A DNA stretch of 64,000 bases from the NCBI GenBank assembly GCA_014843695.1, contig CM026390.1:56408156-56472155 (forward strand), written 5' to 3'. This DNA comes from Archivesica marissinica. Taxonomy: Eukaryota > Mollusca > Bivalvia > Venerida > Vesicomyidae. Below are positions 1-59,913 of this stretch, in pieces. Under the pieces are notes generated by a model. It had not been told where the DNA came from and made no database searches. It saw only the letters and a list, made by a program, of their open reading frames with translations. The position numbers were made by a program, and so were the translations under genes. Positions within the stretch are counted from its first letter, which is position 1, and the number at the start of each line of letters is the position of its first letter.

Positions 1-31
1 GGATCATTAATTGCTAAGTTTATTCGATTAT

Positions 32-585: not shown

Positions 586-667
586 ATTCCCTGATGATAT
601 GGCTTTAATTGATGTACAGCAGGATTTTTATCGGAAGTGCCACAGAATACAGTTGGCTCAGTTGATG
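586..667 (+). CDS. INTS1: INTS1 exon 1 of window (tentative)
   Basis: A pyrimidine-rich stretch ending TTTCTTGCAG precedes 82 nt that read one completing base plus 27 codons, FPDDMALIDVQQDFYRKCHR and then IQLAQLM. The exon ends in phase 0, which fits exon 2. The donor ATG/GTCTAT is weak and the next in-frame codons include a stop at 674. I cannot align it confidently to INTS1, so it may instead be an intronic look-alike. Confidence 0.5.
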
Positions 668-3600
668 GTCTATTGATCTATGATTGTGTGATAGCATGGC
701 CAAGAAAATCAAGAGTGGACAACACTATTTCAACAGATCAGTTCATGCCTCTGTCAACACCACTTGATTTAAGGACACTAATCTTAGCTGTCATATTTAC
801 AGTTTAGAAATCTTGAAAACTGATGAAAACTGAGCAACTATCTGGTGATACAAATGCATACTGTTTGGTACTTTTCTTTTATAGACTATTAAGATTTCAT
901 TTTGACAAGCGGCACAGTTTTAAAAATTATGAAAGAAATTTAAGGTTTCCACAAATAAAGCAAACAATATATATATATATATATGTATGCCAAACAAGCA
1001 AAATTAGATGTGCATGAAAACACCCTGGTAATTATATGGTATTGAAGCCTGTGTACAAACAAGATTGTCTATCATACTGTGTTCACTACAGATCTTCAAT
1101 CTATATCTTGTGCAACTATGAAATCAGAAATGATGATGCAACAAAACACGAAAATAGATTCACAGTATATATAATGTGTTGTATCAGATTGCATAGGGTG
1201 TGACAGACAGACTTTGGTGTGAACATGTAACTGCTTCAATATACTTCCCACTACACTGTAACAGAAGCTGTAACATTACACAAAGCAATCCGATACAATA
1301 TATATGTTGATATACATAATACATGAATACCTGTGAGTGTTTTACGTTTATTTATCATAGTTACCAGTTGCCCATTTTAGCGACACCTACTGAAGAGATT
1401 AGTTATATTAGATTCATTAATCTCATCACACAGATATATACGACTAATGTATGACCAGTCTATGACAGCTTGTACATTTGTATATTATATATGCTAGAAT
1501 CGCCGTTATAAAAAGACATGCTGATACAAAAGTGTGTATTAATGAATGGAGTCTATTCAGTATTTACATCACTAGATATTGTGGTAACATGTAAATACCG
1601 TAGGCCCTATTCAATTGCCTCAACATTATTTACAGACACATATCTGGAACATACCCTTGAAAATGAAATAATATTTAACAACATAATCCTATTAGCAAAG
1701 AAGTTTTGGGGTGGGAGCACTGTTTTGCATTTACGCAAAAACGATGTATAAGTTATTTAAAGTATAATAAAAAAGTCTGAAATGTTTAACAATTCAATAT
1801 ATGAAAACAACGTATCAGATTTAAAATATTGTTGCACGATGGAATCATACCAGTTATACTGAAATAGATTATACATGCACAGTACCAATGAAGATTTAGT
1901 GGGGCCGTGTTTTCCTTTCCAATACCGGCGTGTTAAAACATCTCTTCTACGGATTTGACCAACTACGTCGTATTGGATTTAATATATATTGCATGTCTGG
2001 AGAGGCCTGTGCGTAAGGTTTAATTCAATATAAGAAATATTAACATATTCCAAGATATAAAGAAGTTATGAATAATATATACAGGGGCGCCGTGTTTTAA
2101 ACATGTCCGATGTTGACATTTGCGCGCGAAGATGTGTGCACCGGAAGTTTACATTTCGGACTGTGTCACTGTTTTTAAGGTCGTATGACGAAAGAAAATC
2201 TTAGCTGCGACCGAAGACTTACGACCGTGTTGATAAAACGGTCGTACGATTGTCGTAGGAAACGTCGCAAGTAGCGGTCTTAAGATAAGACCGACTTGCG
2301 ACCGACGTTGTTGATAAAACGGGGCCCAGATCTCTATTAAGCAGCCACCTGTGCTAAGCAGACACTGTGATTCACTTGGCTGACTGATTGACACAGGTTT
2401 AATTGAAACCATTTACATATACCACAGTTTCTTACGGAGGTTGGTGCACCCAAGTACTGGTTAACTGCTGGAGCCTGCCCAGGAAAGGTGTTGTTAGGTA
2501 AACTGCCTGCCGGCGATATAGCCCAAAATGGTGCAGATGCAGGCGTAAAACCCGAAATATAACATATAAAAAAAAACTAAAAATAACATATACCACAATG
2601 TACCACAAGTATAAATTGGTGATTATTTTGCTTTAAAATGGTTTGAGATGATATTTACGAATGGTTTCCCTATTTCTACATACTTTATGCTTACTGTTCG
2701 TGGTGTTATAACCAAATAAAGTATAGAGATTCTACTTGTTTTTTGTTTTTGTTTAAATTTTATTTATTTTACAACGATTGTGAAGCAAGTTTTAACAACT
2801 TATATTAATCACTCTTGTTGGTGCGGATGAAAGCGTATATGTTGTCATTCGTGTGTGTGGGGGGGGTGGGGGAACCGGAGTACCCGGAGAAAACCCACCT
2901 GTCCGATCTGGCGACCACCATTCTACTTGCTCTCTTCTGTATACTTATGTTGGTGGGTATTGTATGTCACATGTCTATACCAGGGAACCAGCCAATCTAT
3001 GCCATGGCTTGCAGAGCTCGTGGAGTCATCCGAGGGTTCACTGGACGTGCTACCTGTGCAGTGTCTGTGTGAGTTCCTGCTGCACGAGACGCAGGATGTT
3101 ATGAAAGATGGGCAAGATGATGAGTCTGTCAAGTTTGAGAGACACAAGAAAAAACAGGTACCGTCTAATGTTTCATAATTTCTGCTCCTTAAAACGTCTG
3201 AACACAAAAATATCATGACAACAATTGATCTTACAAGGCCAATCAAATTAAAATTGTTGCTTGATATGAAATAAAGTTACTAATTAATTTTATCACATAA
3301 CTTTGCTTGATTTCAATGTAATAACACCATCTCATAAGTTTGTATATGTACACATGTGTAATAACACCTGGAAGGATTCTGATTGGTTGAGAGAATAATC
3401 CTTATAATTTGTAAATTAAACTTAAAATATGCATATTTCTATTTGAAATGGTAAGACAAACTACGATTTAAAAGAAGTCTGGATGCAATTATAACACTGT
3501 TTAACCCTTTCCCTCATAGAAGCACCTCTTGACACTATTGCCAATACGACATAACATTGACAATGTAGTAGCCAAACCAATGTTCATAATAAAGGCCAGA

Positions 3601-6600: not shown

Positions 6601-9600
6601 CCTACTTGCCCTGCACCGTGTGTGGTGGATCCCTACTTGCCCTGCACCGTGTGTGTTGTATCCCTACTTGCCCTGCACCGTGTGTGTTGTATCCCTACTT
6701 GTCCTGCACCATGTGTGTTGTATCCCTACTTGCCCTGCACCGTGTGTGTTGTATCCCTACTTGCCCTGCACCGTGTGTGTTGGATCCCTACTTGTCCTGC
6801 ACCATGTGTGTTGTATCCCTACTTGTCCTGCACCATGTGTGTTGTATCCCTACTTGCCCTGCACCGTGTGTGTTGGATCCCTACTTGTCCTGCACCGTGT
6901 GTGTTGTATCCCTACTTGTCCTGCACAGTGTGTGTTGGATCCCTACTTGCCCTGCACCCTGTGTGTTGTATCCCTACTTGCCCGGCACAATGTGTGTTGT
7001 ATCCCTACTTGTCCTGCACTGTGTGTGTTGGATCCCTACTTGCCCTGCACCGTGTGTGTTGTATCCCTACTTGCCCTGCACCATGTGTGTTGGATCCCTA
7101 CTTGCCCTGCACCGTGTGTGTTGGATCCCTACTTGCCCTGCACCATGTGTGTTGGATCCCTACTTGTCCTGCACCATGTGTGTTGGATCCCTACTTGCCC
7201 TGCACCGTGTGTGTTGTATCCCTACTTGCCCTGCACCGTGTGTGTTGGATCCTTACTTGCCCTGCACTGTGTGGGTTGGATCCCTACTTGTCCTGCACAG
7301 TGTGTGTTGGATCCCTACTTGCCCTGCACCGTGTGTGTTGGATCCTTACTTGCCCTGCACCATGTGTGTTGGATCACTACTTGCCCTGCATCATGTGTGT
7401 TGTATCCCTACTTGCCCTGCACTGTGTGTGTTGTATCCCTACTTGCCCTGCACCATGTGTGTTGTATCCCTACTTGCCCGGCACAATGTGTGTTGTATCC
7501 CTACTTGCCCTGCACAGTGTGTGGTGGATCCCTACTTGTCCTGCACCGTGTGGGTTGGATCCCTACTTGCCCTGCACCATGTGTGTTGTATCCCTACTTG
7601 CCCGGCACAATGTGTGTTGTATCCCTACTTGCCCTGCACCGTGTGTGTTGTATCCCTACTTGCCCTGCACCATGTGTGTTGGATCCCTACTTGCCCTGCA
7701 CCCTGTGTGTTGTATCCCTACCTGCCCTGCACAATGTGTGTTGGATTCCTACTTGCCCTGCACAATGTGGGTTGGATCCCTACTTGCCCTGCACCATGTG
7801 TGTTGGATCCCTACACCATGTGGGTTGGATCCCTACTTGCCCTGCACCATGTGTGTTGGATCCCTACACCATGTGGGTTGGATCACTACTTGCCCTGCAC
7901 CATGTGTGTTAGATCACTACTTGCCCTGCACCATGTGTGTTAGATCACTACTTGCCCTGCACCATGTGTGTTGTATCCCTACTTGCCCTGCACCATGTGT
8001 GTTGGATCCCTACTTGCCCTGCACCATGTGGGTTGTATCCCTACTTGCCCTGCACCATGTGTGTTGGATCCCTACTTGCCCTGCACCATGTGGGTTGGAT
8101 CCCTACTTGCCCTGCACCATGTGTGTTGGATCCCTACTTGCCCTGCACCATGTGTGTTGGATCCCTACTTGCCCTGCACCATGTGGATTGAATCCCTACT
8201 CCATGGCCAAGCGGGTAGCACCATTATACTTGTTTGTCCATTATCCGTACTGAGCAGATCATAGGGAAGCTTAATCATTGTGTATATTCCTTTTTCAGTG
8301 TAAGTCTATGAATCTCTCGAGAAGGGAATGACCAACATGTTGGACTGTTTTATTATTTTGCTGTTGTAGAAAATGAAGAAGCAGCAGCAGTTGTTATCCC
8401 GCCTGCAGACCCTTGTACACGACAGTAACGCAGATAGCAGTACAACACACGAGGTCATGGACTACTTCCTCAAGAGGCTTGCCTCCACTCAAGCTGCTAA
8501 TAGGGCACTTGCTACAAAGGTAAGTCATTAACCAGGCACCTGCAAACAGGAACCAGCTGGTATTATTGACCTGTAACAGGAACCAGCTGTTGGTAATATT
8601 GACCTGTAACAGAAACCAGCTGTTAATATTGAACTGTAGCAGGAACTAGCTGTTAATATTGAACTTTAATGGGAACCAGCTGGTAATATTTAACTGTAAA
8701 TGGAACCAGCTGGTAATATTGAACTGTAATGGGAACCAGCTAGTAATATTTAACTGTAATTGGAACCAGCTGGTAATATTGAACTGTAATGGGAACCAGT
8801 TGGTAATAATGAACTGTAACAGGAACCACCAGTTAGGAACCAACTGGTGGTTCCTGGTAATTTTGACTAGTAATGGGAACCAGCTGGTAATGTTGAACTG
8901 TAACAGGAACCAGCCAGTAATATTGAACCATAATGGGTACCAGCTCTACCAGCACCATATTGCTACTGGAGAAATGAAGCTGAAATAATTTAATTGCAAG
9001 AGAATACCAGTAGAACTGACAACAAGCTGGCTGTAGCATCACACACATTATAAAAGTAAGTTGCTATTAACAGAGCATATGCTCAGTCGCCCAAAAGCAT
9101 TTATGCGGTGCGACTTTAAATAAACTTATTAGTCAGAGCATATGCTAGAAAGTATTATTTTTATGCTATTTATTTGTATGTCGGTGTTTATTGGTGTTGT
9201 ATATCTGTTGCAGGGTGTGTCAGTGTTTATTGGTGTTGTATATCTGTTGCAGGGTGTGTCAGTGTTTATTGGTGTTGTATATCTGTTGCAGGGTGTGTCA
9301 GTGTTTATTGGTGTTGTATATCTGTTACAGGGTGTGTCAGTGTTTATTGGTGTAGTATATCTGTTACAGGGTGTGTCAGTGTTTATTGGTGTAGTATATC
9401 TGTTACAGGGTGTGTCAGTATTTATTGGTGTAGTATCTGTTACAGGGTGTGTCAGTGGTTATTGGTGTAGTAGTATATCTGTTGCAGGGTGTGTCAGTGT
9501 TTATTGGTGTAGTATATCTGTTACAGGGTGTGTCAGTGTTTATTGGTGTAGTATATCTGTTACAGGGTGTGTCGGTATTTATTGGTGTAGTATCTGTTAC

Positions 9601-12600
9601 AGGGTGTGTCAGTGGTTATTGGTGTAGTAGTATATCTGTTACAGGGTGGGTCAATGTTTATTGGTGTAGTATATCTGTTACAGGGTGTGTCAGTGTTTAT
9701 TGGTGTAGTAGTATATCTGTTACAGGGTGTGTCAGTGTTTATTGGTGTAGTATATCTGTTACAGGGTGTGTCAGTGTTTATTGGTGTAGTATATATGTTA
9801 CAGGGTGTGTCAGTGTTTATTGGTGTAGTATATCTGTTACAGGGTGTGTCAGTGTGTATTGGTGTTGTATATCTGTTACAGGGTGTGTCAGTGTTTATTG
9901 GTGTAGTATATCTGTTACAGGGTGTGTCAGTATTTATTGGTGTAGTAGTATATCTGTTACAGGGTGTGTCAGTGTTTATTGGTGTTGTATATCTGTTGCA
10001 GGGTGTGTCAGTATTTATTGGTGTAGTAGTATATCTGTTACAGGGTGTGTCAGTGTTTATTGATATTGTATATCTGTTACAGGGTGTGTCAGTGTTTATT
10101 GGTGTAGTATATCTGTTACAGGGTGTGTCAGTGTTTATTGGTGTAGTATATCTGTTACAGGGTGTGTCAGTGTTTATTGGTGTTGTATATCTGTTACAGG
10201 GTGTGTCAGTGTTTATTGGTGTAGTATATCTGTTACAGGGTGTGTCAGTGTTTATTGGTGTAGTATATCTGTTGCAGGGTATGTCAGTATTTATTGGTGT
10301 AGTATCTGTTACAGGGTGTGTCAGTGTTTATTGGTGTAGTAGTATATCTGTTACAGGGTGTGTCAGTGTTTATTGGTGTAGTATATCTGTTACAGGGTGT
10401 GTCAGTGTTTATTGGTGTAGTATATCTGTTGCAGGGTGTGTCAGTGTTTATTGGTGTAGTATATCTGTTGCAGGGTGTGTCAGTGTTTATTGGTGTTGTA
10501 TATCTGTTACAGGGTGTGTCAGTGTTTATTGGTGTAGTATATCTGTTACAGGGTGTGTCAGTATTTATTGGTGTAGTATCTGTTACAGGGTGTGTCAGTG
10601 TTTATTGGTGTAGTATATCTGTTACAGGGTGTGTCGGTATTTATTGGTGTAGTATCTGTTACAGGGTGTGTCAGTGGTTATTGGTGTAGTAGTATATCTG
10701 TTACAGGGTGTGTCAGTGGTTATTGGTGTAGTAGTATATCTGTTACAGGGTGTGTCAGTGTTTATTGGTGTAGTATATCTGTTACAGGGTGTGTCAGTGT
10801 TTATTGGTGTAGTAGTATATCTGTTACAGGGTGTGTCAGTGTTTATTGGTGTAGTATATCTGTTACAGGGTGTGTCAGTGTTTATTGGTGTAGTATATCT
10901 GTTACAGGGTGTGTCAGTGTTTATTGGTGTAGTATATCTGTTACAGGGTGTGTCAGTGTTTATTGGTGTAGTATATCTGTTACAGGGTGTGTCAGTATTT
11001 ATTGGTGTAGTAGTATATCTGTTACAGGGTGTGTCAGTGTTTATTGGTGTAGTATATGTTACAGGGTGTGTCAGTGTTTATTGGTGTAGTAGTATATCTG
11101 TTACAGGGTGTGTCAGTGTTTATTGGTGTAGTATATCTGTTACAGGGTGTGTCAGTGTTTATTGGTGTAGTATATCTGTTACAGGGTGTGTCAGTATTTA
11201 TTGGTGTAGTAGTATATCTGTTACAGGGTGTGTCAGTGTTTATTGGTGTAGTAGTATATCTGTTACAGGGTGTGTCAGTGTTTATTGGTGTTGTATATCT
11301 GTTACAGGGTGTGTCAGTGTTTATTGGTGTAGTAGTATATCTGTTACAGGGTGTGTCAGTGTTTATTGGTGTAGTATATCTGTTACAGGGTGTGTCAGTG
11401 TTTATTGGTGTAGTAGTATATCTGTTACAGGGTGTGTCAGTGTTTATTGGTGTTGTATATCTGTTACAGGGTGTGTCAGTGTTTATTGGTGTTGTATATC
11501 TGTTACAGGGTGTGTCAGTGTTTATTGGTGTAGTAGTATATCTGTTACAGGGTGTGTCAGTGTTTATTGGTGTAGTATCTGTTACAGGGTGTGTCAGTGT
11601 TTATTGGTGTAGTAGTATATCTGTTACAGGGTGTGTCAGTGTTTATTGGTGTAGTAGTATATCTGTTACAGGGTGTGTCAGTGTTTATTGGTGTAGTATA
11701 TCTGTTACAGGGTGTGTCAGTGTTTATTGGTGTGTAGTATATCTGTTACAGGGTGTGTCAGTGTTTATTGGTGTAGTAGTATATCTGTTACAGGGTGTGT
11801 CAGTGTTTATTGGTGTAGTATATCTGTTACAGGGTGTGTCAGTGTTTATTGGTGTTGTATATCTGTTACAGGGTGTGTCAGTGTTTATTGGTGTAGTATA
11901 TCTGTTGCAGGGTGTGTCAGTGTTTATTGGTGATGTATATCTGTTACAGGGTGTGTCAGTGTTTATTGGTGTAGTATATCTGTTACAGGGTGTGTCAGTG
12001 TTTATTGGTGTAGTATATCTGTTGCAGGGTGTGTCAGTGTTTATTGGTGTTGTATATCTGTAACAGGGTTGTCAGTGTTTATTGGTGTGGTATATCTGTT
12101 ACAGGGTGTGTCAGTGTTTATTGGTGTAGTAGTATATCTGTTACAGGGTGTGTCAGTGTTTATTGGTGTAGTATATCTGTTGCAGGGTGTGTCAGTGTTT
12201 ATTGGTGTAGTATATCTGTTACAGGGTGGGTCAGTGTTTATTGGTGTAGTATATCTGTTACAGGGTGTGTCAGTATTTATTGGTGTAGTATCTGTTACAG
12301 GGTGTGTCAGTGGTTATTGGTGTAGTAGTATATCTGTTACAGGGTGTGTCAGTGTTTATTGGTGTAGTATATCTGTTACAGGGTGGGTCAGTGTTTATTG
12401 GTGTAGTATATCTGTTACAGGGTGTGTCAGTGTTTATTGGTGTAGTAGTATATCTGTTACAGGGTGTGTCAGTGTTTATTGGTGTAGTATATCTGTTACA
12501 GGGTGTGTCAGTGTTTATTGGTGTAGTATATCTGTTACAGGGTGTGTCAGTGTTTATTGGTGTAGTATATCTGTTGCAGGGTGTGTCAGTGTTTATTGGT

Positions 12601-15600
12601 GTAGTAGTATATCTGTTGCAGGGTGTGTCAGTGTTTATTGGTGTAGTATATCTGTTACAGGGTGTGTCAGTGTTTATTGGTGTAGTATATCTGTTACAGG
12701 GTGGGTCAGTGTTTATTGGTGTAGTATATCTGTTACAGGGTGGGTCAGTATTTATTGGTGTAGTATATCTGTTACAGGGTGTGTCAGTGTTTATTGGTGT
12801 AGTATATCTGTTACAGGGTGTGTCAGTGTTTATTGGTGTAGTATATCTGTTACAGGGTGTGTCAGTGTTTATTGGTGTAGTATATCTGTTGCAGGGTGTG
12901 TCAGTGTTTATTGGTGTTGTATATCTGTTACAGGGTGTGTCAGTGTTTATTGGTGTAGTATATCTGTTACAGGGTGTGTCAGTGGTTATTGGTGTAGTAG
13001 TATATCTGTTACAGGGTGTGTCAGTGTTTATTGGTGTAGTAGTATATCTGTTACAGGGTGTGTCAGTGTTTATTGGTGTAGTATATCTGTTGCAGGGTGT
13101 GTCAGTGTTTATTGGTGTTGTATATCTGTTACAGGGTGTGTCAGTGTTTATTGGTGTAGTATATCTGTTACAGGGTGTGTCAGTGTTTATTGGTGTAGTA
13201 GTATATCTGTTACAGGGTGTGTCAGTGTTTATTGGTGTAGTATATCTGTTACAGGGTGTGTCAGTGTTTATTGGTGTAGTATATCTGTTACAGGGTGGGT
13301 CAGTGTTTATTGGTGTAGTATATCTGTTACAGGGTGTGTCAGTATTATTGGTGTAGTATCTGTTACAGGGTGTGTCAGTGGTTATTGGTGTAGTAGTATA
13401 TCTGTTACAGGGTGTGTCAGTGTTTATTGGTGTAGTATATCTGTTACAGGGTGTGTCAGTGTTTATTGGTGTAGTATATCTGTTACAGGGTGTGTCAGTG
13501 TTTATTGGTGTAGTAGTATATCTGTTACAGGGTGTGTCAGTGTTTATTGGTGTAGTATATCTGTTACAGGGTGTGTCAGTGTTTATTGGTGTAGTATATC
13601 TGTTGCAGGGTGTGTCAGTGTTTATTGGTGTAGTATATCTGTTGCAGGGTGTGTCAGTGTTTATTGGTGTTGTATATCTGTTACAGGGTGTGTCAGTGTT
13701 TATTGGTGTAGTATATCTGTTACAGGGTGTGTCAGTGTTTATTGGTGTAGTATATCTGTTACAGGGTGGGTCAGTGTTTATTGGTGTAGTATATCTGTTA
13801 CAGGGTGGGTCAGTATTTATTGGTGTAGTATATCTGTTACAGGGTGTGTCAGTGTTTATTGGTGTAGTATATCTGTTACAGGGTATGTCCATGATAATCT
13901 CCAAGACACAGTCAAGCCCGACAGAGGAATCCCCTGTCCCGATAGAGACAGACACAGTAATACTGCAGCACAGCTGGCTTCTTGTCAATTTTCCAGAATT
14001 GCCAATGTTCCCACAAGTCAAAGCGAAAACCTGCACTGCCCTTAGACAGGTTAGTGGTTTTATTATCACCCTAGGTGTAGCGGAGGGTTGGGCTATGTAG
14101 TCTATAGTGATTATATACACTACAGTCTTGCTTGTAAATTAGTTGTTATTGCGACATTAGACCAATAATAACAACCTGGATTTGGTGTTGACGCTGCTGT
14201 GTTGTGATTATTGTGTGATAGATTACCTGATCCCATACACGCTCAGTGCATGGCATTGAAACTTAAAAATGGAGAATATTAGTCAAGTTCAATAACTGTG
14301 TTATGCAATTTAAGAAATTTAGACCCTTGTTGCAAATCCCCCCCCCACCACCAGCGGTTAGCTCATCTGACCACAGACACCATCCAGCTTCTGTCATCAT
14401 CTACATTCAAACAACTAGTTCTCACTTACTGGTTGTTCACAAAGTCTACATTCAAACAACTAGTTCTCACTTACTGGTTGTTCACAAAGTCTACATTCAA
14501 ACAACTAGTTCTCACTTACTGGTTGTTCACAAAGTCTACATTCAAACAACTAGTTCTCACTTACTGGTTGTTCACAAGGTCTACATTCAAACAACTAGTT
14601 CTCACTTACTGGTTATTCACAAAGTCTACATTCAAACAACTAGTTCTTACTTAACACTTACTGGCTGTCCACAAAGTCTACATTCAAACAACTAGTCCTT
14701 ACTTACCACATACTGGCTGTCCACAAAGTCTACATTCAAACAACTAATTCTCACTTACCACTTACTGGCTGTTCACAAAGTCTACATTCAAACAACTAGT
14801 TCTCACTTACCACTTACTGGCAGTTCACAAAGTCTACATACAAACAACTAGTTCTCACTTACCACTTACTGGCAGTTCACAAAGTCTACATTCAAACAAC
14901 TAGTTCTCTCTTACTGGCTGTTCACAAAGTCTACATTCAAACAACTAGTTCTCACTTACTGGCTGTCCACAAAGTCTACATTCAAACAACTAGTTCTCAC
15001 TTACTGGCTGTCCACAAAGTCTACATTCAAACAACTAGTTCTCACTTACTGGCTGTTCACAAAGTCTACATTCAAACAACTAGTTCTCACTTACCACTTA
15101 CTGGCAGTTCACAAAGTCTACATTCAAACAACTAGTTCTCACTTACCATTTACTGGCTGTTCACAAAGTCTACATTCAAATAACTAGTTCTCACTTACCA
15201 CTTACTGGCTGTCCACACAGTCTATATTCAAACAACTAGTTCTCACTTACTGGCTGTCCACAAAGTCTACATTCAAACAACTAGTTCTCACTTACTGGCT
15301 GTCCACAAAGTCTACATTCAAACAACTAGTTCTCACTTACCACTTACTGGCTGTTCACAAAGTCTACATTCAAACAACTAGTTCTCACTTACCACTTACT
15401 GGCTGTCCACAAAGTCTACATTCAAACAACTAGTTCTCACTTACTGGCTGTCCACAAAGTCTACATTCAAACAGCTAGTTCTCACTTACCACTTACTGGC
15501 TGTTCACAAAGTCTACATTCAAACAACTAGTTCTCACTTACCACTTACTGGCTGTTCACCAAGCTTAGTTAATTTGTAGTGTTCATTTATTATCGCCCAC

Positions 15601-21600: not shown

Positions 21601-24600
21601 TATGCCGTTCATAATGCATTAGTCATGTTGGACCAGTCTGACTCGTACAGACAGCATACAGCAGTTGTTGCTCTATAGCTCGCCTCATCCATAAGACTCT
21701 TGTAAGAGTAGTATCTGCCGTCCGATGTCCGTCAACAATTGTATTTTCATGACAAATGAATTGTTATCATTTACCAATATTGAATAATAGGATGTTACCA
21801 AATTCGGTTTGTATCGTCCTGACAACGACCTCTACCAAGTCTGATTGAAATAGGTCCATACTGTCACTAGGGTCAAATATCATCGGGACTAGATGAACTT
21901 GAAGGGAAACCTTTAAATGACCTCTTCTCGTGAACCATTAGTAGGGATGATTTTAGCCAAAATGGTCAGTAGCATCCTTACAACATCCTCTACCAAATTG
22001 GTTGAAATACGGTCATTGGGTCAAAAAGTAGAACATTAACTAGTTCAATATGGACACTGACATAAAATGTCATAACACTTCTGTTTCAGAATAAAATTTT
22101 CATACATACTGTGGAATTCAACTAGTATTTATATCCTATGCTCTTCATATTTCAGTCAAATACGCAGGATCAGATAATCTTACAATGGGAGTGTGGAGAT
22201 TCTGCCACGATGCATATTCTAGTTGTACACGCCATGATAATCCTGCTCTCTTATGGATCAGCCCACAGTAAGTTGTACATGCCATGGCAATCTGCTGTAT
22301 TATGGATCAGCCCACAGTAAGTTGTACATGCCATGGCAATCCTGCTGTATTATGGATCAGCCCACAGTAAGTTGTACATGCCATGGCAATCCTGCTGTAT
22401 TATGGATCAGCCCACAGTAAGTTGTACATGCCATGGCAATCCTGCTGTATTATGGATCAGCCCACAGTAAGTTGTACATGCCATGGCAATCCTGCTGTAT
22501 TATGGATCAGCCCACAGTAAGTTGTACATGCCATGGCAATCCTGCTGTATTATGGATCAGCCCACAGTAAGTTGTACATGCCATGGCAATCCTGCTGTAT
22601 TATGGATCAGCCCACAGTAAGTTGTACATGCCATGGCAATCCTGCTGTATTATGGATCAGCCCACAGTAAGTTGTACATGCCATGGCAATCCTGCTGTTT
22701 ATGGATCAGCCCACAGTAAGTTGTACATGCCATGGCAATCCTGCTGTATTATGGATCAGCCCACAGTAAGTTGTACACGCCATGATAATCCTGCTCTCTT
22801 ATGGATCAGCCCACAGTAAGTTGTACATGCCATGGCAATCCTGCTGTATTATGGATCAGCCCACAGTAAGTTGTACATGCCCTGGCAATCCTGCTGTATT
22901 ATGGATCAGCCCACAGTAAGTTGTACATGCCCTGGCAATCCTGCTGTATTATGGATCAGCCCACAATAAGTTGTACATGCCATGGCAATCCTGCTGTATT
23001 ATGGATCAGCCCACAGTAAGTTGTACATGCCATGGCAATCCTGCTGTATTATGGATCAGTCCACAGTAAGTTGTACATGCCATGATAATCCTGCTGTTTT
23101 TTCTGTACTTTATGATGTTATTGTACATTTTGTCAGTAATTTATGGTGTTTTTGTACATTTTGTCTGTACTTTATTGTGTTTTTGTAGAATAGAACTTGT
23201 ACTTTATGGTGTTTTGTATGTATTTCAATGTGTTTTGTACATGTAAGTTATGGTATTTTTGCAGGTGAGGATTTGTATCAGGAGTTGTTAGAGACATGGT
23301 TTCCAGAGAAGAGCAAGCCGCCATCTGCTTTTTTATTGGATACATCAGAGGAGGCCCTGCTGCTTCCTGATTGGTTAAAGCTGAGAATGATTCGGTCACG
23401 TGCGGAGCCTCTCATTGATGCAGGTACTATTTCTGCATGCAACTTCTACATCCAGATAGATTAGAGCATGCTAATCTCCCTTGTGCTGCACATGCTTACC
23501 GGGGTGTTGTTTTGCCAATCCAATCCTTGTGTGTTTCATACCAGCTCATACACACAGAATGTCTAGTTTTTCCCACCCTTATTGAAGTGTTTTTATTGAT
23601 TCTTACTGAAGGTCTCTGGACTGCACTTTTGACATGCATGTATTAAAGAGAAACCAGATGGTTTAAGCAAACACACTGTGTAACCATAAGAGTGATAAAG
23701 AACAATAAAATTAACTAATAAGAGTTCTAAAGAGTCAGTACATAGAGTGGTGGCACCTATGCTCGGCGTGTTCCTATGCTCGGCGTATTCCTATGCTCGG
23801 CGTATTCCTATGCTCGTCGTATTCCTATGCTCGGCGTATTCCTATGCTCGGCGTATTCCTATGCTCGGCGTATTCCTATGCTCGGGGCTCGGCGTATTCC
23901 TATGCTCGGCGTATTCCTATGCTCGGCCTATTCCTATGCTCGGCGTATTCCTATGCTCGCGGCGTATTCCTATGCTCGGCGTATTCCTATGCTCGGCGTA
24001 TTCCTATGCTCGGCGTATTCCTATGCTCGGCGTATTCCTATGCTCGGCGTATTCCTATGCTCGGCGTATTCCTATGTTCGGCGTATTCCTATGTACGACG
24101 TATTCCTATGCTCGGCGTATTCCTATGCTCGGCCTATTCCTATGCTCGGCGTATTCCTATGCCTGGCGTATTCCTATGCTCGGCGTATTCCTATGCTCGG
24201 CGTATTCCTATGCTCGGCGTATTCCTATGCTCGACGTATTCCTATGCCCGGCGTATTCCTATGCTCGGCTATTCCTATGCTCGGCGTATTCCTATGCTCA
24301 GCGTATTCCTATGCTCGGCGTATTCCTATGCTCGGCGTATTCCTATGCTCAGCGTATTCCTATGCTCAGCGTATTCCTATGCTCGGCGTATTCCTATGCT
24401 CGGCGTATTCCTATGCTCAGCGTATTCCTATGCTCGGCGTATCCTATGCTCGGCGTATTCCTATGCCCGGCGTATTCCTATGCTCGGCGTATTCCTATGC
24501 TCGGCGTATTCCTATGCCTGGCGTATTCCTATGCTCGCGGCGTATTCCTATGCTCGGCGTATTCCTATGCTCGGCGTATTCCTATGCTCGGCGTATTCCT

Positions 24601-36600: not shown

Positions 36601-39600
36601 TAGAAATTTATCAGTGAAATGAAATGTGTTATTCCACTGCTTTGCAAATGTGGTACCTAGCCGTTGCATTTTGAAATGTTCTTAACGTGAACGTTTTCGG
36701 ACTCAAGCTTTCAGTGAAGTCATTGAATACGTCTTTTATAATGTCATTGATGGTCGTTTAAGCACGACATTCTAGCTCCATTTAGCGTACAGTTACATTG
36801 TTTTCTGTTATAGAAACACGTTTCAGTCTGACATAAAAATAAACTATTTGTTTGTTTAAGTGACTGATCAAATAATATTTTACTTGTGAACATATAAAGC
36901 TAGTATTATCATTTGTGGCTAATGCCACTCATTATAAAAATGTTTTCAATATTCATTCTGTGAAATGTAAATTTGATCATTCAATGAAACAGACAAATAT
37001 CCTCTTATTATTGTTAGAATGAAGCGGGGGTGAAGCGTCATTTATTCGAGACAATGGAGACACTATGCAGGCATTGTGTTGGTCAGAAGTCTCCTATGTC
37101 AGCTATGGTCCATCAGTTTATGGTATCCCAGACCAAACAAACATCTCACAAACCTCATCTCCGAACAGAGAATCACAAGTACTTCCTGGAAGGTAAATAT
37201 AGATTTTATAGAACATAGTTGAAAGTCGCGATAGCGCAGTGGTAGCGCGTTCGCTTCAGGTGCGAAAGGCCGGATTTGGCTGTTACACTTATTTTAAATT
37301 CCACATTGATCCTTCTCTCTCCCTTGTGGTGATGGATTCCATCAGGAATGATGTCTCGAGAGTAATTAATATACGTTGTAAGAACTCATTTTGCAATTGA
37401 GCTAAAATAAATAATGTGTTATGTTGCAGTTTGTACATATAATGTGTTATGTTGCAGTTTGTACATATAATGTGGTATGTTTGCATTATGTACATATAAT
37501 GTGTTATGTTGCAGTTTGTACATATAATGTGGTATGTTTGCATTATGTACATATAATGTGTTATGTTGCAGTTTGTACATATAATGTGGTATGTTTGCAT
37601 TATGTACATATAATGTGTTATGTTGCAGTTTATACATATAATGTGTTATGTTTGCAGTATGTACATATAATGTGTTATGTTTACAGTATGTACATATAAT
37701 GTGTTATGTTTGCAGTATGTACATATAATGCATTATGTTTGCAGTATGTACATATAATGTGTTATGTTTGCAGTATGTACATATAATGCATTATGTTTGC
37801 AGTATGTACATATAATGTGTTATGTTTGCATTATGTACATATAATACATTATGTTTGCAGTATGTACATATAGTGTGTTATGTTTGCAGTATGTACATAT
37901 AATGTGTTATGTTTGCAGTATGTACATATAATGTGTTATGTTTGCAGTATGTACATATACTGTGTTATGTTTGCAGTATGTACATATAGTGCATTATGTT
38001 TGCAGTATGTACATATAATGCATTATGTTTGCAGTATGTACATATACTGTGTTATGTTTGCAGTATGTACATATAATGCATTATGTTTGCAGTATGTACA
38101 TATAATGTGTTATGTTTGCAGTATGTACATATACTGTGTTATGTTTGCAGTATGTACATATAATGCATTATGTTTGCAGTATGTACATATAATGCATTAT
38201 GTTTGCAGTATGTACATATAATGCATTATGTTTGCAGTATGTACATATAATGTGTTATGTTTGTAGTATGTACATATAATGTGTTATGTTTGCAGTATGT
38301 ACATATAATGTGTTATGTTTGCAGATCTGAAAGCTGCCTCATCATCAGACAGCAGCCAGCTAGAGTCTCTGGTTAGAGACAGTATGAGGTCAGCCGTGGT
38401 AGCCTGTAATGCCAGCTCGGCGACAGAACTTGCCTGCACGGTGTTGCTGGCAGATCAGGCAGACTCTGACAAGTAAATATACACGTATAAAACTATGCAC
38501 AACTTGCCTACATGGTGTTGCTCACAGATCAAACAGACTCTGACAAGTAAATATACACATATAAAACTATGCACAACTTGCCTACACGGTGTTGCTGGCA
38601 GACTCTGACAAGTAAATATACACAACTCAATTTTATTTTTGTGGGAAAAGTGGTAGATTTTGAGTGTTTCACCCACCAATCTATTCCTTGTATTTTAGTG
38701 TTGCCCACTTTTGTATAATTTAGTATTATTGAACAACATCATTGATAATACCAGTAATTTATTTGCTTGGTAGCACCGGCTGTTACACTGCGATCTTCTT
38801 GATTTACCGATGCTGTTAACATATCCAATGAAAATAGACGAGGACATTTGCTGATATGTTTTCCTAGACTAGTATTCTAGATTTTAATTTTGATTTCAGT
38901 AATAGCATGCTGCCATCCACATGTGCCTTGTTTGTTGATTGGCTAGAACTGCTTGACCCCGAAGTTATAAGACTGGTTCCCGAACTGCAAGAAAAGCTGT
39001 TATTTGCCAACCAATCAGTGTCACAGTCTAGCCACGGTAGAGAACACAGTAGTCAGCCATATTTACTGGCCTTGTTGACACACCAGTCCAGCTGGAGCAC
39101 TCTACATAGATGTATTAACTCACTGCTGTCTAGCTCTGATACAGGGTAAGTTGTGATGGCTACTGTTGTTTTACTTTTCTACATGGTACTCTTGGTAATA
39201 TTTGAGGTAAGCGTATTTCTACGCGCCAACCGGGGTCAATCTAGCGGGCGGATGGACGTATGCAGATGACAGTGGACAGCTGACTGAGTGATGACAACGA
39301 TATGCTGTGCTTGTTTTACTCTTCAGCAACTGTTATGAGCATGCGTGAATGCTAACGATCACTCCACTATCGTCAGAAACCTGAATTATATCATAAAATG
39401 CCTAGCTGACACAACTCCTCAGTATGACACTTAATAATAAAAAACGCACCAATGCTTAAAAATATGACGTCTGCTATCTAATACAAACAGGCAAGGATTC
39501 TCGGCTATCTTAGAGTGTCGGAGGCCCAGAATGAAGTTCTGCTCGGTATTTATACTAACCGCACAATGCAACGTGTGGGATGTGCAAACTGTGGGTGCAC

Positions 39601-45600: not shown

Positions 45601-48600
45601 CAACATTAGACCCACAAACAGCAACATTAAACCCACAAACAGCAACATTAAACCCACAGAGAAGTGACAAACAGCAACATTAAACCCACATAGAAGTAAC
45701 AAACAACAGCATTACACCCACAGAGAAGTGACAAACAGCAACATTAAACCCACATAGAAGTGACAAACAGCAACATTAAACCCACAGGGAAGTAACAAAC
45801 AGCAACATTAAACCTACAAACAGCAACATTAAACCCACAGAGAAGTGACAAACAGCAACATTAAACCCACAGGGAAGTGACAAACAGCAACATTAAGCCC
45901 ACAGAGAAGTGACAAACAGCAACATTAAACACACACAGAAGTGACAAACAGCAACATTAAACACACAGAGAAGAACAAACAGCAACATTAAATACATAGA
46001 GAAGTGACAAACAGCAACATTAAACACACACACAGCATCATTAAACCCACAGAGAAGTGACAAACAGCAACATTAAGCACACAAACAGCAACATTAGACC
46101 CACAAACAGCAACATTAAACCCACAAACAGCAACATTAAACCCACAGAGAAGTGACAAACAGCAACATTAAACCCACATAGAAGTGACAAACAGCAACAT
46201 TAAACCCACAAACAGCAACATTAAACCCTCAAACAGCAACATTAAACCCACATAGAAGTGACAAACAGCAACATTAAACCCACAAACAGCAACATTAAAC
46301 CCACAAACAGCAGCATTAAACCCATAAACAGCAACATTAAACCCACAGAGAAGTGACAAACAGCAACATTAAACCCACAGAGAAGTGACAAACAGCAACA
46401 TTAAACCCACAAACAGCAACATTAAACCCACAATCAGCAACATTAAACCCACAGAGAAGTGACAAACAGCAACATTAAACACACAGAGAAGTGAGAAACA
46501 ACAACATTAAACCCACAGAGAAGTGACAAACAGCAACATTAAACACACAGAGAAGTGACAAACAGCAACATTAAGCCCACAGAGAAGTGACAAACAGCAA
46601 CATTAAACACACAGAGAAGTGACAAACAGCAACATTAAACACACAGAGAAGTAACAAACAGCAACATTAAACACACAGAGAAGTGACAAACAGCAACATT
46701 AAGCCCACAGAGAAGTGACAAACAGCAACATTAAACACACAGAGAAGTGACAAACAGCAACATTAAACACACATAGAAGTAACAAACAGCAACATTAAAT
46801 ACATAGAGAAGTGACAAACAGCAACATTAAACACACAAACAGCAACATTAAACCCACAGAGAAGTGACAAACAGCAACATTAAACACACAAACAGCAACA
46901 TTAGACCCACAAACAGCAACATTAAACCCACAGAGAAGTGACAAACAGCAACATTAAGCCCCACAGAGAAGTGACAAACAGAACATTAAACCCACAAACA
47001 GCAACATTAAACCCTCAAACAGCAACATTAAACACACAGAAGTGATAAACAGCAACATTAAACACACATAGAAGTGACAAACAGCAACATTAAACCCACA
47101 AACAGCAACATTAAACCCATAAACAGCAACATTAAACCCACAGAGAAGTGACAAACAGCAACATTAAACACACACAGAAGTGACAAACAGCAGGATGCAC
47201 ATGTGCTTTATTTTTACCATTGAAACTGTCCATTTGGTTTTTTAGCCGTGATGTTCAACTATACGAGGCATTTCTACTAGAGTTATATCTGCAGTATCCA
47301 TTCCTGTCTGCCTGGTTGTCAGATACTAGGTGTGTAACTACAGAGGCGCTCGTCTCACATAACTCACAAACTCAGGTATGTAACTGTATCTTGTCACATA
47401 GCTCACAAACTCAGGTATGTAACTATAGATGTTATCTTGTCATATAACTCACAAACACAGGTGTGTAACTGTAGATGTTTTCTTGTCATATAGCTCACAA
47501 ACTCAGGTATGTAACTTTAGATGTTTACTTGTCATATAGCTCACAAACTCAGGTATGTAACTGTAGATGTTTACTTGTCATATAGCTCACAAACTCAGGT
47601 ATGTAACTGTAGATGTTTACTTGTCATATAGCTCACAAACTCGGGTATGTAACTGTAAATGTTTTCTTGTCACATAACTCACACACGCAGGTATGAATTG
47701 AATCCAAGAGTATCATACAGTTCTTGTCAAATACTAAATATAGGGTCAACGGTTCCAGGAAATGAAACAATACATAAGTTATGTTGTGTGTATTGCAGAT
47801 GGATCTCATCACCCACAGACTGATCACTGGTCTATACCAGGGTAGCAAGAGCAAGAGAAATGATAACAGAATGGCAGATGTAAATATAGCGTGTAGAAAA
47901 TTGGCGGCTGAACATCCTGTGCTAGTTCTCAGGTAATGCCACACAGTCACAGAGTACTGGGTATTCGGCAAAAATCATTGTCAGTAATGTTCTCAAAATG
48001 TACATACATACAATGTAATCAGGAGTCCTTGAATGGCAGATCTGTGTTCTATAGTCATACAAATGGCAGTTCTGTGTTCTATAGTCATACACTGAGTTCT
48101 TTAATCATACAAATTACAGATATGTGTTCTATAGTCATACAAATTACAGATATGTGTTCTATAGTCATACAAATTACAGATCTGTGTTCTATAGTCGTAT
48201 AAATGGCAGTTCTGTGTTCTATGGCCATACACTGTATTCTTTAGTCATATAAATTATTATGTGTGCTATAGTCATACAAATGGCAGTTCTGTGTTCTATA
48301 GTCATACAAATGGCAGTTCTGTGTTCTATAGTCATACAAATGGCAGTTCTGTGTTCTATAGTCATACACTGTGTTCTATAGTCATATAAATTACAGATCT
48401 GTGTTCTATAGTCATACAAATGGCAGTTATGTGTTCTATAGTCATACAAATGGCAGTTATGTGTTCTATAGTCATACAAATGGCAGTTATGTGTTCTATA
48501 GTCATACAAATGGCAGTTATGTCTTCTATAGTCATACAAATGGCAGTTATGTCTTCTATAGTCATACAAATGGCAGTTATGTCTTCTATAGTCATACACT

Positions 48601-51600
48601 GTGTTCTATAGTCATATAAATGGCAGTTCTGTGTTCTATAGTCATACAAATGGCAGTTGTGTTCTATAGTCATACACTGTGTTCTATAGTCATACAAATG
48701 GCAGTTCTGTGTTATAAGGTCATACAAATGGCAGTTGTGTTCTGTGCATTTTGTCTATCCTGTGTTCAAAACCCATAGTTCCATTGCCAAAGTAAAATTT
48801 GAAATATTGTAGACACAGTGTGACATCAGACGTGTATTCTTCTCTGTACAATTTCAGACAGCTGCCAGCAATAGTTGCATTACTGAAAGGCAAGACTCAG
48901 TTCACATTTGGGGAGTTTAAGCAGAGAAACCTGCTAATGTTGTACATCTACGTCCTTGGAATGCTGGAACTTCTTCAACCAAACATATTCTACCGGGAAA
49001 TCTCATCACTAGACAGTATACTGGAGGAATACTTCCACCTCTTGACTGTATGTATATATATATACACACTTCACTTTGACCATTAACCCTTTCCTTCATA
49101 GAGGTTTAGGTTAATGTAATATTATATCTCCATACAAGCGACAGCCAATTAGTTATCGTGCAGTGGATAAGTAGTCACCATATCTATCCCACCTCCATAG
49201 ATATTACTGGGACTACATGAGAGTCTGGCCTTTATTATGAGCATGGTTTGGCTACTACATTGTCAATGTATGTCATATTGGTAATGGCGTCAAGAGGTGC
49301 TTCTATGAGGGAAAGGGTTAAGGAGAAATAGTCTCCCTGAACTGTCTCACTTCTCCCTACTTTGAGTTCAGGGTGAAGTGTATTCATTTAAAATTGGTAT
49401 ACCGTTATATTAATGAACTACAGTAAAACCGTAAGCAGCCATCCAAGGGAATCACAAAAAGTGGCTGCTTAGCACAGGTGGCTGCTTAATAGAGGTCAAT
49501 TGTATAATAAAACAACATATTGAGAATCTAGAAACTGGCTACTTAATACAGGTTGGCTGCTTAATGGAGGTAATCACTACAACAGGTTTGACTGTATGTA
49601 ATACAATGTAATGCAAAGCTTGATTATTGTTATTAATTAGTGTGTTACCTATGGATGGATAATGTGCATTTAACAAATAATCTTTCAGTCATACAGTTAC
49701 AACAGTCAGAAGCAGATGGGTACCCTCATTGTGAAGCTTGTGCAGATGCTGAACGAGTATGTCAGACACGACTCACATAGAGCAAACAGTCTGCTGCAGA
49801 AACATGTGCTACTGCTTACGTAAGTATGATAGTCAACACTCACACAGGGTAAACAGCCTGCTGCAGAAACATGTGCTACTGCTTACGTAAGTATGATGGT
49901 CAACACTCACACAGGGTAAACAGCCTGCTGCAGAAACATGTGCTACTGCTTACGTAAGTATGATAGTCAACACTCAGTGTCACTCACACAGGGTAAACAG
50001 TCTGCTGCAGAAACATGTGCTACTGCTTACGTAAGTATGATGGTCAACACTCACAGATGGCAAACAGCCTGCTGCAGAAACATGTGCTACTGCTTACGTA
50101 AGTATGATAGTCAACACTCACAGATGGCAAACAGCCTGCTGCAGAAACATGTGCTACTGCTTACGTAAGTATGATAGTAAACACTCAGTGTCACTCACAC
50201 AGAGCAAACAATCTGCTGCAGAAACATGTGCTACTGCTTACGTAAGTATGCTGGTCCACACTCACACAGGGTAAACAGCTTGCTAATAAATATAGTTTAA
50301 AAGTTTCTTATAAATACATAGGTAGCGACAAGGAGGGAGCAAACTACATTGTTACACGTGATATTAGTCGTGATTCATGGATATAAGCATCCTTCACAAA
50401 CATGTGTCATTCTCTGACAAACATGTAAAATAGCTCCACATACAATCATCAATCTGGTATATTTCATGTGTTAGATCTACAGTAAATAATTTCGCTGTAT
50501 CATATGTATTTCGCTGTATCATATGTATTTCGCAGTATCATATGTATTTCGCTGTATCATATTTATGTAGGTACCATTAATCTGTCTCAAAGTTCTCTTG
50601 TGAACGGTGTTAATATAAGATCTCCAGTTAGAATAACATGGAATGTGTAGATGTTGCCAGGACTAGACAAGTTTTAGTTCCTAACTGTTTGTTATTATAC
50701 CCAGGGCATTATTATAAAGTGTACACTAATTATTTTACAACTATTGCATCAAGTTTAGCAACTTATATTAATCACTCTTGTTGGTGCGGATGAAAGCATA
50801 ACTGTGGGAGGACCATCGAACTACCCGGAGAAACCCACCTGTCCCATCTGGCGATCACCATACCATCTCACATACTTCCCGGTCCGAGGATAGAACCAGG
50901 GCTGCTTTCGTGAGCATGTAACCACTGCGCCAATCTAACTCCAATGATTGTGTAGGAATATCTGCAGATATATGTGTGTATTTACTCCAGGTATATGTAG
51001 GAATATCTGCAGATATATGTGTTTATTTACTCTAGGTATATATGTAGGAATATCTGCAGATATATGTGTTTATTTACTCCAGGCATATGTAGGAATATCT
51101 GCAGATATATGTGTTTATTTACTCTAGGTATATATGTAGGAATATCTGCAGATATATGTATTTATTTACTGTATATTTGTTATCACAGGAACGTATCCTC
51201 TCAGTTCCCCGATTTATCCCCTTTAAAATCCCTGCTGGCTGGCCTCACCCTCCCACGTCACAGCCAGGAAGAAGTAGCGGGCACCAGCACACAGTCAGGC
51301 TCGGGCGCCTACCCTGCCAGACCAGCATCACCCTGGGCAATATCCCATCTAGCTCCATTTATGCAGAAAATCAAGAGGGATAACTCTGATGGTGAGTGTG
51401 TGTTTTACGTTTATTTATTGTCGCTACCGGTTGCCCATATGAGCGACGCCTCCTGAAGAGATTAGTCATTTTAGATTTTTGGAGGATAGTGCAATGATAC
51501 AGAGAGAGACCCATTCCAGAGTCTCCTCTGGTTCTTTTACATGCACAGTGTAAAGCACCGACACAAGAACTCGGTTTAACGTCCCATCTGAAAGACTGTA

Positions 51601-54600
51601 AATTTTATGTGGGTCAGACGGGGGATCGAACCTGCAATCCCTGGATTACCAGTCCAGCGTGATGGTGAGCAGTTTGCATATGCTTATATTGTATTTGTAT
51701 GACTATAGAACACATGTCAGCTTAATGTATCTGGTGTGGAGATACAATATCTCGAGGGGCAGTAACACGCATTACTAGATTTTCTTAAAATATTATTACA
51801 GGACTATGTTGCAACTTTTGGCTGAAATTGACATCCAGTTTTAATGAAACATTTAAATTGGATGATAATGCTAAATATGGGGGGAAAACAAGTTTATGTT
51901 ATCCTTCATCTCTTTAAAATGCTAAACAAATGCAGCCAAAATACACCGGACCTGAAGAACGCCTATGTAGGCGATTTCGAGATAATGTAATGCACGTTTG
52001 CTTGGCTGAATATGTTGTGTTGCTGTCTTGTTACAAATCTTCCCAAGAATAAGCTGCAATGTTCTTTTTGCCACACATTTGATTCATGAATGTTGCTGTT
52101 TCTGCTACTGAGTCACTCCTCAACTGAAATTGTTTTGTAGCTAAAAATAAAAGACTATGCAGGGGAGATAATTATATGGTTATATATTTCTGTACTGCAG
52201 CATACAAAATATAATTAATGAAAATGTCCTGCAATAATTGCTTTGTACAGAGACATTTGTAAATCATGTTATAGTGTATTTATACCATTCTAGCTATCTG
52301 GCCCAGAATTACATAAAGATTTTTGAAAGAATGTTCATGAGAACTTCTGTTGTGTATTTACAGATGTGCTAATGGTGCTCCAAGATTTAGACGAGTCTTC
52401 AAAGAGAACAATAGAAATACTGGAACATTTTGTGGTATGTATGTTGTGTAGTTTGAAACAGTCTGTGGTAAATATACTGTGTAGATTGCAATTGTAAGTG
52501 TGTGTTGTGTAGAAATTTACAGTATGCATTAAGTGTGCTGTGTAGAGTTTTACAGTATGTGGCAAGTGTGCTGTGTAGAATTTTACATTATGTAGTAAGT
52601 GTGCTGTGTAGAGTTTTACAGTATGTGGTGAGTGTGCTGTGTAGAGTTTTACAGTATGTGGCAAGTGTGCTGTGTAGAGTTTTACAGTATGTGGTGAGTG
52701 TGCTGTGTAGAGTTTTACAGTATGTGGCAAGTGTGCTGTGTAGAGTTTTACAGTATGTGGCAAGTGTGCTGTGTAGTTTTACAGTATGTGGCAAGTGTGC
52801 TGTGTAGAGTTTTACAGTATGCATTAAGTGTGCTGTGTAGAGTTTTACAATAGTATGCTGTAAGTGTGCTGTGTAGAGTTTTACAGTATGCATTAAGTGT
52901 GCTGTGTAGAGTTTTACAATAGTATGCTGTAAGTGTGTGCTGTGTAGAGTTTTACAGTATGCATTAAGTGTGCTGTGTAGAGTTTTACAACAGTATGCTG
53001 TAAGTGTGAGCTGTGTAGAGTTGACAGTATGCATTAAGTGTGCTGTGTAGAGTTTTACAGTATGTGGCAAGTGTGCTGTGTAGAGTTTTACAGTATGTGG
53101 CAAGTGTGCTGTGTAGAGTTTTACAGTATGTGGCAAGTGTGCTGTGTAGAGTTTTACAGTATGTAGTATGTGTGCTGTGTAGAGTTTTACCGTATGTAGT
53201 ATGTGTGCTGTGTAGAGTGTTACAGTATGTAGTATGTGTGCTGTGTAGAGTGTTACAGTATGTGGTGAGTGTGCTGTGTAGAGTTTTACAGTATGTGGTA
53301 AGTGTGCTGTGTAGAGTTTTACAATATGTGGCAAGTGTGCTGTGTAGAGTTTTACAGTATGTGGCAAGTGTGCTGTGTAGAGTTTTACAATATGTGGCAA
53401 GTGTGCTGTGTAGAGTTTTACAATATGTGGCAAGTGTGCTGTGTAGAGTTTTACAATATGTGGCGGCAAGTGTGCTGTGTAGAGTTTTACAATATGTGGC
53501 AAGTGTGCTGTAGAGTTTTACAATATGTGGCAAGTGTGCTGTGTAGAGTTTTACAATATGTGGCAAGTGTGCTGTGCAGAGTTTTACAATATGTGGCGGC
53601 AAGTGTGCTGTGTAGAGTTTTACAGTATGTGGTAAGTGTGCTGTGTAGAGAGATTGGAGTTTTTTTTTGGTAAATACATGTACACTGTATGTTGTATAGT
53701 TTGGAACATCTGTGGTAAGTTTGTTTTATAGTTTCGAATATCTGTGGTAAGTAGGTTGTATAGTTTGAAGCATTTCTGGTAAGTTTGTAGTATATCCCAT
53801 ATATAACTCAGGGGAGTATGACATATTGCTGTATTGATTGAGGTGTATGTTGTATACAATGTATTACTCGGGGAGTATGACTTATCGCTGTATTGATTGA
53901 GGTGTATGTTGTATACAATGTATTACTCGGGGAGTATGACATATCGCTGTATTGATTGAGGTGTATGGGTATGTTGTATATTACTCAGGGAGTATGACAT
54001 ATCGCTGTATTGATTGAGGTGTATGTTGTATATTACTTGGGGAGTATGATATATCGATGTATTGATTGAGGTGTATGGGTATGTTGTATATTACTCGGGG
54101 AGTATGACATATCGCTGTATTGATTGAGGTGTATGTTGTATATTACTCGGGGAGTATGACATATCGCTGTATTGATTGAGGTGTATGGGTATGTTGTATA
54201 TAACTCGGGGAGTATGACATATCGCTGTATTGATTGAGGTGTATGTTGTATATTACTCGGGGAGTATGACATATCGCTGTATTGATTGAGGTGTATGTTG
54301 TATATTACTCGGTGAGTATGACATATCGCTGTATTGATTGAGGTGTATGTTGTATATTACTCGGGGAGTATGACATATCGTTGTATTGATTGAGGTGTAT
54401 GGGTATGTTGTATATTACTCGGGGAGTATGACATATCGCTGTATTGATTGAGGTGTATGTTGTATATTACTCGGTGAGTATGACATATCGCTGTATTGAT
54501 TGAGGTGTATGGGTATGTTGTATATTACTCAGGGGGTATGACATATCGTTGTATTGATTGAGGTGTATGGGTATGTTGTATATTACTCAGGGAGTACGAC

Positions 54601-59913: not shown

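Follow-up and report, generated by a model that had tools for sequence, protein, structure and literature searches.

Tandem arrays spanning exon-intron borders in INTS1 and other genes of the bivalve Archivesica marissinica

Introduction

Tandem arrays built on exon-intron boundaries have been described in lancelets under the name of mirages (PMC3087553, PMC3902484). These are head-to-tail repeats with a unit of 10 to 160 bp that spans the boundary, found at 5′ as well as 3′ borders, in Adh3 and in the globin genes BflGb6 and BflGb9 (PMC3087553), and also in troponin C and PGBD5 (PMC3902484). Many of the repeated copies, not all, keep the AG or the GT (PMC3087553, PMC3902484). RT-PCR suggests that splicing of the genes concerned is regular, and a model of intron gain was offered (PMC3087553). 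Related structures are on record. Intron gain by tandem genomic duplication duplicates exon sequence together with splice signals (PMC3443670). At their exon-intron boundaries, human genes of segmental duplications carry variable internal tandem repeats, which alter splicing and give rise to novel introns in young paralogues (PMC2812944). In tandem-repeat genes such as UBC, coding monomers are delimited by dual-specific AGGT sites, each of them donor and acceptor (PMC10809524).

We analysed a window of 64,000 nucleotides of the Archivesica marissinica genome (GCA_014843695.1, contig CM026390.1, positions 56,408,156 to 56,472,155), in which a first-pass annotation, made from the letters alone, had noticed arrays of this type in the INTS1 gene and had taken the phenomenon to be undescribed. 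In view of the lancelet reports it is not: the kind has already been named, and what is new here is the phylum and the scale. No report of the structure in molluscs appeared among the open-access papers listed in our literature searches. As in lancelets, the bivalve units span boundaries at donors and acceptors, measure 30-130 nt in the clear cases, and many copies keep the splice signal. Unlike the lancelet cases, the arrays belong to another phylum, that of a bivalve, occur in all three gene groups examined, grow as long as 4.7 kb with as many as 119 copies, and affect ten counted borders in the part of one gene that lies in the window. Lancelet mirages were checked by RT-PCR, whereas the bivalve arrays are known from DNA sequence. 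Compared with intron gain by tandem duplication (PMC3443670), they duplicate one intron end and lengthen the intron. They share with the human segmental-duplication repeats (PMC2812944) the location at boundaries, but the conserved INTS1 keeps a conserved protein. Like UBC (PMC10809524), the gene holds arrays of splice-competent sites, except that the bivalve copies are intronic and of one site kind.

Results and Discussion

C-terminal exons of INTS1 in the window

The window lies inside a 110-Mb scaffold of a 1.54 Gb genome. It carries the C-terminal ~58% of INTS1 as 26 exons (e2-e27) on the forward strand, joined in a single frame of 1225 codons from 2984 to 59913. Exons e2 to e7 are at 2984-3157, 8370-8519, 13882-14049, 16153-16257, 20689-20856 and 22156-22267, e8 to e13 at 23265-23423, 26450-26701, 27525-27640, 31775-31837, 33003-33056 and 35540-35632, e14 to e19 at 37018-37192, 38325-38472, 38900-39145, 40545-40632, 41762-41988 and 47246-47375, e20 to e25 at 47799-47932, 48858-49047, 49689-49819, 51189-51391, 52364-52434 and 57728-57819, and e26 and e27 at 58639-58748 and 59795-59913, with the stop at 59913. 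The numbering matches that of the first-pass annotation, e2 being the first exon in this order and 59795-59913 the last. AG precedes all 26 exons and GT follows all except the last.

The gene had been called INTS1 from the start, and this identification was confirmed. The first PDB search, with pieces of the protein, returned Integrator complex subunit 1 (7cun_A, E 6e-72), and the spliced protein shares 80% identity with the related protein P0001, 67% with INTS1 of Mactra antiquata and, over 76% of the query, 74% with a Ruditapes philippinarum protein. Mya arenaria is the next named match after Ruditapes and Mactra, all three being Euheterodonta, so that INTS1 places its source most probably among the euheterodont bivalves. 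Exons of muscle myosin had scallop and squid chains as their first matches. The alignment with P0001 extends over 1223 residues with one gap of a single residue, placed away from every junction. With P0001 as query, tblastn gave clear matches to 10 further INTS1 exons in the 40 kb upstream, and a weaker match to an eleventh candidate at L031:812-1129.

Arrays at INTS1 borders

Tandem Repeats Finder (TRF) reported 35 arrays with a period of at least 8 between e2 and the stop codon (57 kb), covering 34.1 kb. Their bounds cross seven borders (A for acceptor, D for donor, preceded by the exon number): e4A, e7D, e12A, e13A, e15D, e22D and e24D. Units of the arrays at crossed borders are 30-78 nt long. 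Independently of TRF, we scored as look-alike any GT or AG site in the same intron whose surrounding 20 nt had at most 6 mismatches to the true border and whose score exceeded 2; a look-alike was called as strong as the true site when its score was at most 0.5 below it, or higher. Look-alikes were found at 12 of the 50 INTS1 borders tested, the e25 acceptor, which lies beside a gap, being left out. Ten of these borders were counted, e10D and e18A having one weak look-alike each. The reversed-core control, run without score limit, gave 0/50.

On the acceptor side, all on the forward strand, the largest array is that of e4 (9179..13889, 39-nt unit, exon start 13882), the last copy of which is the true site; of the 118 look-alike acceptors that it holds, 114 equal or approach the true one in strength as defined above. 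Decayed copies precede e9 (25770..26460, exon start 26450), with two look-alikes 90 and 672 nt upstream that both score below the true site. The e12 acceptor array (32207..33011, 30-nt unit, exon start 33003) holds 28 look-alikes, 14 of which are as strong. At e13 a duplication of a 78-nt unit was found (35416..35569, two copies, exon start 35540), with ~30 nt of exon in the unit, a single look-alike as strong as the true site, and a TGAGTTT direct repeat flanking the duplication. The array before e15 (37411..38324, 29-nt unit, exon start 38325) has a unit without exon sequence and ends exactly at the AG; its 13 loose look-alikes include none as strong as the true acceptor, and none was left under a stricter rule.

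The donor arrays, also on the forward strand, start with that of e7 (22221..23097, exon end 22267), whose 50-nt unit consists of the exon end and the intron start (GTAAG), and which holds 15 decoy donors, all 15 as strong as the true one. Both decoys of the e15 donor array (38427..38596, 74-nt unit, exon end 38472) and all six of the e22 donor array (49771..50284, 67-nt unit, exon end 49819) are likewise as strong. The e19 donor is contained in a 46-nt unit (47349..47695, exon end 47375), with seven look-alikes, five of them as strong; here the array start was taken from the sequence, the TRF start (47389) being 13 nt late. From the e24 donor, arrays of 33/32-nt units run into the intron (52424..53794, exon end 52434), with seven look-alikes, three as strong as the true site.

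Arrays are thus present at the borders of five donors (e7, e15, e19, e22, e24) and four acceptors (e4, e9, e12, e13). Eight borders had been named at first as lying inside arrays: seven do, their unit holding the border, and at e15A the array ends exactly at the AG. TRF lists every one of the unit lengths then given (50, 74, 46, 67, 39, 30, 78 and 29 nt), and the proposal of independent events stands, as the units differ from array to array. Among the borders flagged as weaker cases, e9A and e24D were retained with their two and seven look-alikes, and e3D was not, as it has no look-alike and stands 25 nt from the closest array. Further upstream in the gene, arrays were found at two donors, L032:2536-2739 (65-nt unit) and L032:7698-8228 (53-nt unit), and at two acceptors, L032:3472-3834 (55-nt unit, hereafter nE) and L032:7008-7152 (67-nt unit). 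By reading, the copies of nE are without AG, and the true acceptor lies ~20 nt inward of the position first read.

Frame and retention of the decoy sites

Of the 199 look-alikes gathered at the ten counted borders, 18 keep the frame without a stop: e4A accounts for 13, and e9A, e12A, e13A, e19D and e24D for one each. Retention of the splice signal was measured with the site dinucleotide masked when finding the copies. Eighteen arrays were tested and 16, all but e15A and nE, gave copies. The dinucleotide was kept in 257 of the 278 copies, so that the initial statement that decoys retain splice signals is mostly correct. Compared cell by cell with the consensus of the copies, a measure blind to a loss common to all copies of one array, the dinucleotide matched in 541/556 cells (97.3%) and the flanks in 5466/5560 (98.3%; Fisher P = 0.09). 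Nineteen of the 21 dinucleotide losses fell in two arrays, the donor at C2:71242264 (0/6 intact) and the acceptor at C7:54630036 (13/26 intact), both from the myosin sample below. Decoys are therefore mostly tolerated, and some arrays hint at their removal. As the arrays look young or homogenised, this test of selection on decoys is weakened.

Myosin and adaptin exons

INTS1 had been presented as a special case. It is not one: exons of myosin heads and of adaptins, which were not picked for the feature, show look-alikes too. For myosin, 52 of 74 matches were retained after exclusion of near-identical paralogues and of places that lacked DNA, and the 49 with enough flank were used; they fall on 11 scaffolds, in 22 clusters of 100 kb. 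Their borders were predicted (97), and the 79 with a score above 2 were analysed; the predictor was right at 47 of 48 INTS1 borders, which are its own training set. Look-alikes within 1.45 kb were found at 14 of the 79 confident borders, against 1 with the reversed core and 0.2 with shuffled cores. Read by eye, seven of the 14 are unmistakable (C9:36398918D, C3:3958992D, C7:54630036A, C4:23263243D, C3:3901877A, C2:71248437A and C2:71242264D), with units of 31-130 nt, two have an uncertain border (C11:45946157D and C4:23273144D), and the remaining five are score-based only, on one or two look-alikes each. TRF arrays cross 13 of the 97 predicted borders, at least four of these 13 being doubtful border predictions by eye (C5:66183658A, C3:3958992A, C3:3901877D, C1:8485888A).

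For adaptin, 15 exons out of 29 matches were used, with flanks of 500 nt or somewhat more and 28 of 30 borders confident. Two of the 28 have look-alikes (control, 0), both clear by reading, with units of 39 and 55 nt. In one example the last nucleotides of an exon ending in ...MAVNTFVK recur repeatedly behind it, together with GTAA. Taken together, the two samples have look-alikes at 16 of 107 borders.

A separate observation was made at G000:C5:100289375-100289707 (L046), where a myosin-head segment (profile positions 122-152) is matched twice, 240 nt apart. Both matches fall within one open stretch of 1155 codons, which looks as though an array repeated conserved exon sequence.

Where duplication occurs

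The location of duplications was examined with 20-mers under a single rule, allowing at most 4 mismatches within 1.45 kb, border 20-mers being counted on the intron side. Look-alikes were found at none of 75 exon centres, at 19 of 129 borders, and at 40-50 of 126-129 intronic points taken 60-900 nt into the intron, that is at 31-40% of them. Downstream of INTS1 (from 61001), arrays make up 25.7 of 43 kb. Duplication is thus general, and exon centres are clean. A search for a neighbouring gene downstream of INTS1 gave mostly repeats and no border sample.

Two of the downstream arrays may be mentioned for themselves. A 24/48-nt array lies past the end of INTS1, at window 61229-64000, and reaches the window edge. 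At L052:3243-9117, ~153 copies of a 39-nt unit contain long open stretches with 13-residue repeats (GEEEACAITMYTR-like), which would correspond either to a repetitive protein or to a chance open frame.

When the 35 INTS1 arrays were placed at random, with an exon overlap of at most 30, 50 or 80 nt, mean crossings were 1.2, 1.9 and 2.8, compared to the 7 observed, and 7 or more were reached in 0, 0.1% and 1.85% of 2000 trials. These values are optimistic, since INTS1 was picked for its striking look. Array edges were then counted per free kb, which corrects for sequence already occupied. At the 79 myosin borders, density was 2.65 within 50 nt of the border and 0.82 at 100-1400 nt (18 and 59 edges), a 3.25-fold ratio; at the 50 INTS1 borders it was 3.28 and 1.63 (14 and 54 edges), a 2.0-fold ratio. 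With the exon-side 50 nt alone, enrichment was 2.66-fold and 1.86-fold, respectively. This excess may reflect a preference for borders, or arrays pinned against exons. A process aimed at borders, as first suggested, was not demonstrated: arrays fill 34.1 of 57 kb of INTS1 and 25.7 of 43 kb downstream, and 31-40% of intronic points have look-alikes. The crossing of borders may largely be a by-product, although edge density there is raised 2.0-fold in INTS1 and 3.25-fold in myosin.

Proposed explanation

The explanation that we consider probable is that the INTS1 arrays are mirages, produced by tandem duplication acting genome-wide, and that copies straddling a junction survive through the exon-nearest copy, which keeps site and frame. 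Short tandem duplications would arise at a high rate in introns and intergenic DNA, short direct repeats such as that at e13 being a possible starting point, and slippage or unequal exchange would expand them. Those inside exons would be removed by selection, which is consistent with the clean exon centres. Where the founding unit straddles an exon-intron junction, the array can survive because both the frame and the true splice site still come from the exon-nearest copy. As far as the frame is concerned the extra copies become intron, and the same is presumed of the RNA. Arrays would then extend away from the exon, presumably at no cost, lengthening the intron and filling it with near-identical decoys. 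Since most decoys shift the frame or add a stop, the exon-nearest site must serve in most messages. Its choice would probably depend on exon definition or proximity, helped by the decay of mis-spliced RNA. The single frame obtained across 26 exons if the exon-nearest copy is used, and the P0001 alignment without gaps at junctions, fit a regular splicing of INTS1 in which this copy would be the one employed.

Some observations do not agree well with this explanation. Edge density at borders is above that of a neutral by-product (3.25-fold for myosin, 2.0-fold for INTS1). Three arrays have lost their decoys wholly or by half (C2:71242264, C7:54630036 and the upstream nE), which hints at some selection against decoys. 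The adaptin rate is lower (2/28), part of the flanks being of 500 nt.

The arrays constitute a natural experiment in splice-site choice, with a true site standing beside 1 to 118 copies of similar motif and flanks in a conserved gene of unchanged frame, and they allow the rules of proximity and exon definition to be tested on natural genes. They also show a direct route for intron lengthening. In genomes with such arrays, gene predictors and models of splice sites may be led astray.

Alternative explanations

Splice junctions might preferentially seed duplications, for instance by transcription- or R-loop-linked breakage at splice sites. Edge counts close to borders (within 50 nt, 18 for the 79 of myosin and 14 for the 50 of INTS1, 3.25 and 2.0 times the interior density) point in this direction, as do the seven TRF crossings where 1.2-2.8 were expected. 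We nevertheless regard this as unlikely: arrays are equally dense downstream of the gene and commoner in intron interiors than at borders, INTS1 was selected as striking, and edges fall in similar numbers in the 50 nt outside and inside the exon (10 and 8 for myosin, 7 and 7 for INTS1), as pinning predicts. In its boldest form, the proposal would be that junctions attract tandem duplication in this lineage, that about one border in seven (16/107) becomes an expanding array, that this is a main route of intron growth, and that the spliceosome picks its site, out of dozens that are almost identical, by position alone. We hold this whole to be doubtful, with some slight chance of being right. Should borders indeed attract duplication, DNA instability would be tied in a new way to splicing or transcription.

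Rather than mirages that lengthen existing introns, the arrays could be nascent introns, a duplicated exon segment having provided both ends as in intron gain by tandem genomic duplication. This model has been proposed for the lancelet mirages (PMC3087553) and in general (PMC3443670), and the units here do hold exon sequence with strong splice sites. It is very unlikely to apply to INTS1, where the ten counted borders, the e25 acceptor beside the gap being left out, belong to ten different introns. It follows that among the 50 borders tested no intron has look-alikes of both its ends.

Hardly credible, in our view, is that the duplicated sites are kept as a splicing aid, through a local excess of splice factors, or as alternative sites. 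Most decoys are intact (257/278), and e4A has 13 in-frame, stop-free decoys, for example 351-513 nt upstream. However, decoy sites are kept no better than their flanks (97.3% versus 98.3%), so that nothing points to selection for decoys, and at the counted borders other than e4A, only 5 of the 81 look-alikes avoid a frame break or a stop.

Introner-like elements were considered separately. In such a family, one and the same sequence has been inserted in many places. Within INTS1 they were rejected, the border arrays differing in unit length and sequence.

Second copy of the window start and a transposon remnant

The window is preceded by a 6.9-kb N gap, before which a second copy of the window start, up to the e4 array, was found (about L033:475-10000 and L034:1-3122, against window 1-13500). 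Identity is 97.8 and 96.6% in two long alignments, among the alignments listed (>200 nt). This copy is probably the other haplotype left in the assembly as an unpurged haplotig, so that INTS1 e2-e3 appear twice. A purely intronic 31-nt array in the e2-e3 intron (window 4097-8200) has 133 units in the window and 120 in the second copy, and a 30-nt array has 12.9 units in both; the e4 array of the second copy is cut by the gap. That the arrays are assembly artefacts is the least credible reading of all: N gaps do adjoin arrays, and the first 13 kb stand in the assembly twice, unmerged, but the other copy has these arrays too, some with another number of units, just as expected of two real haplotypes, and the structure is found at separate loci on several scaffolds.

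Finally, a remnant of a Tc1/mariner-like element lies at window 27786-31531, within a 21-nt minisatellite that resumes beyond either end of it. Its inverted ends are near 27890 and 29390, and a transposase-like frame is read from its minus strand.
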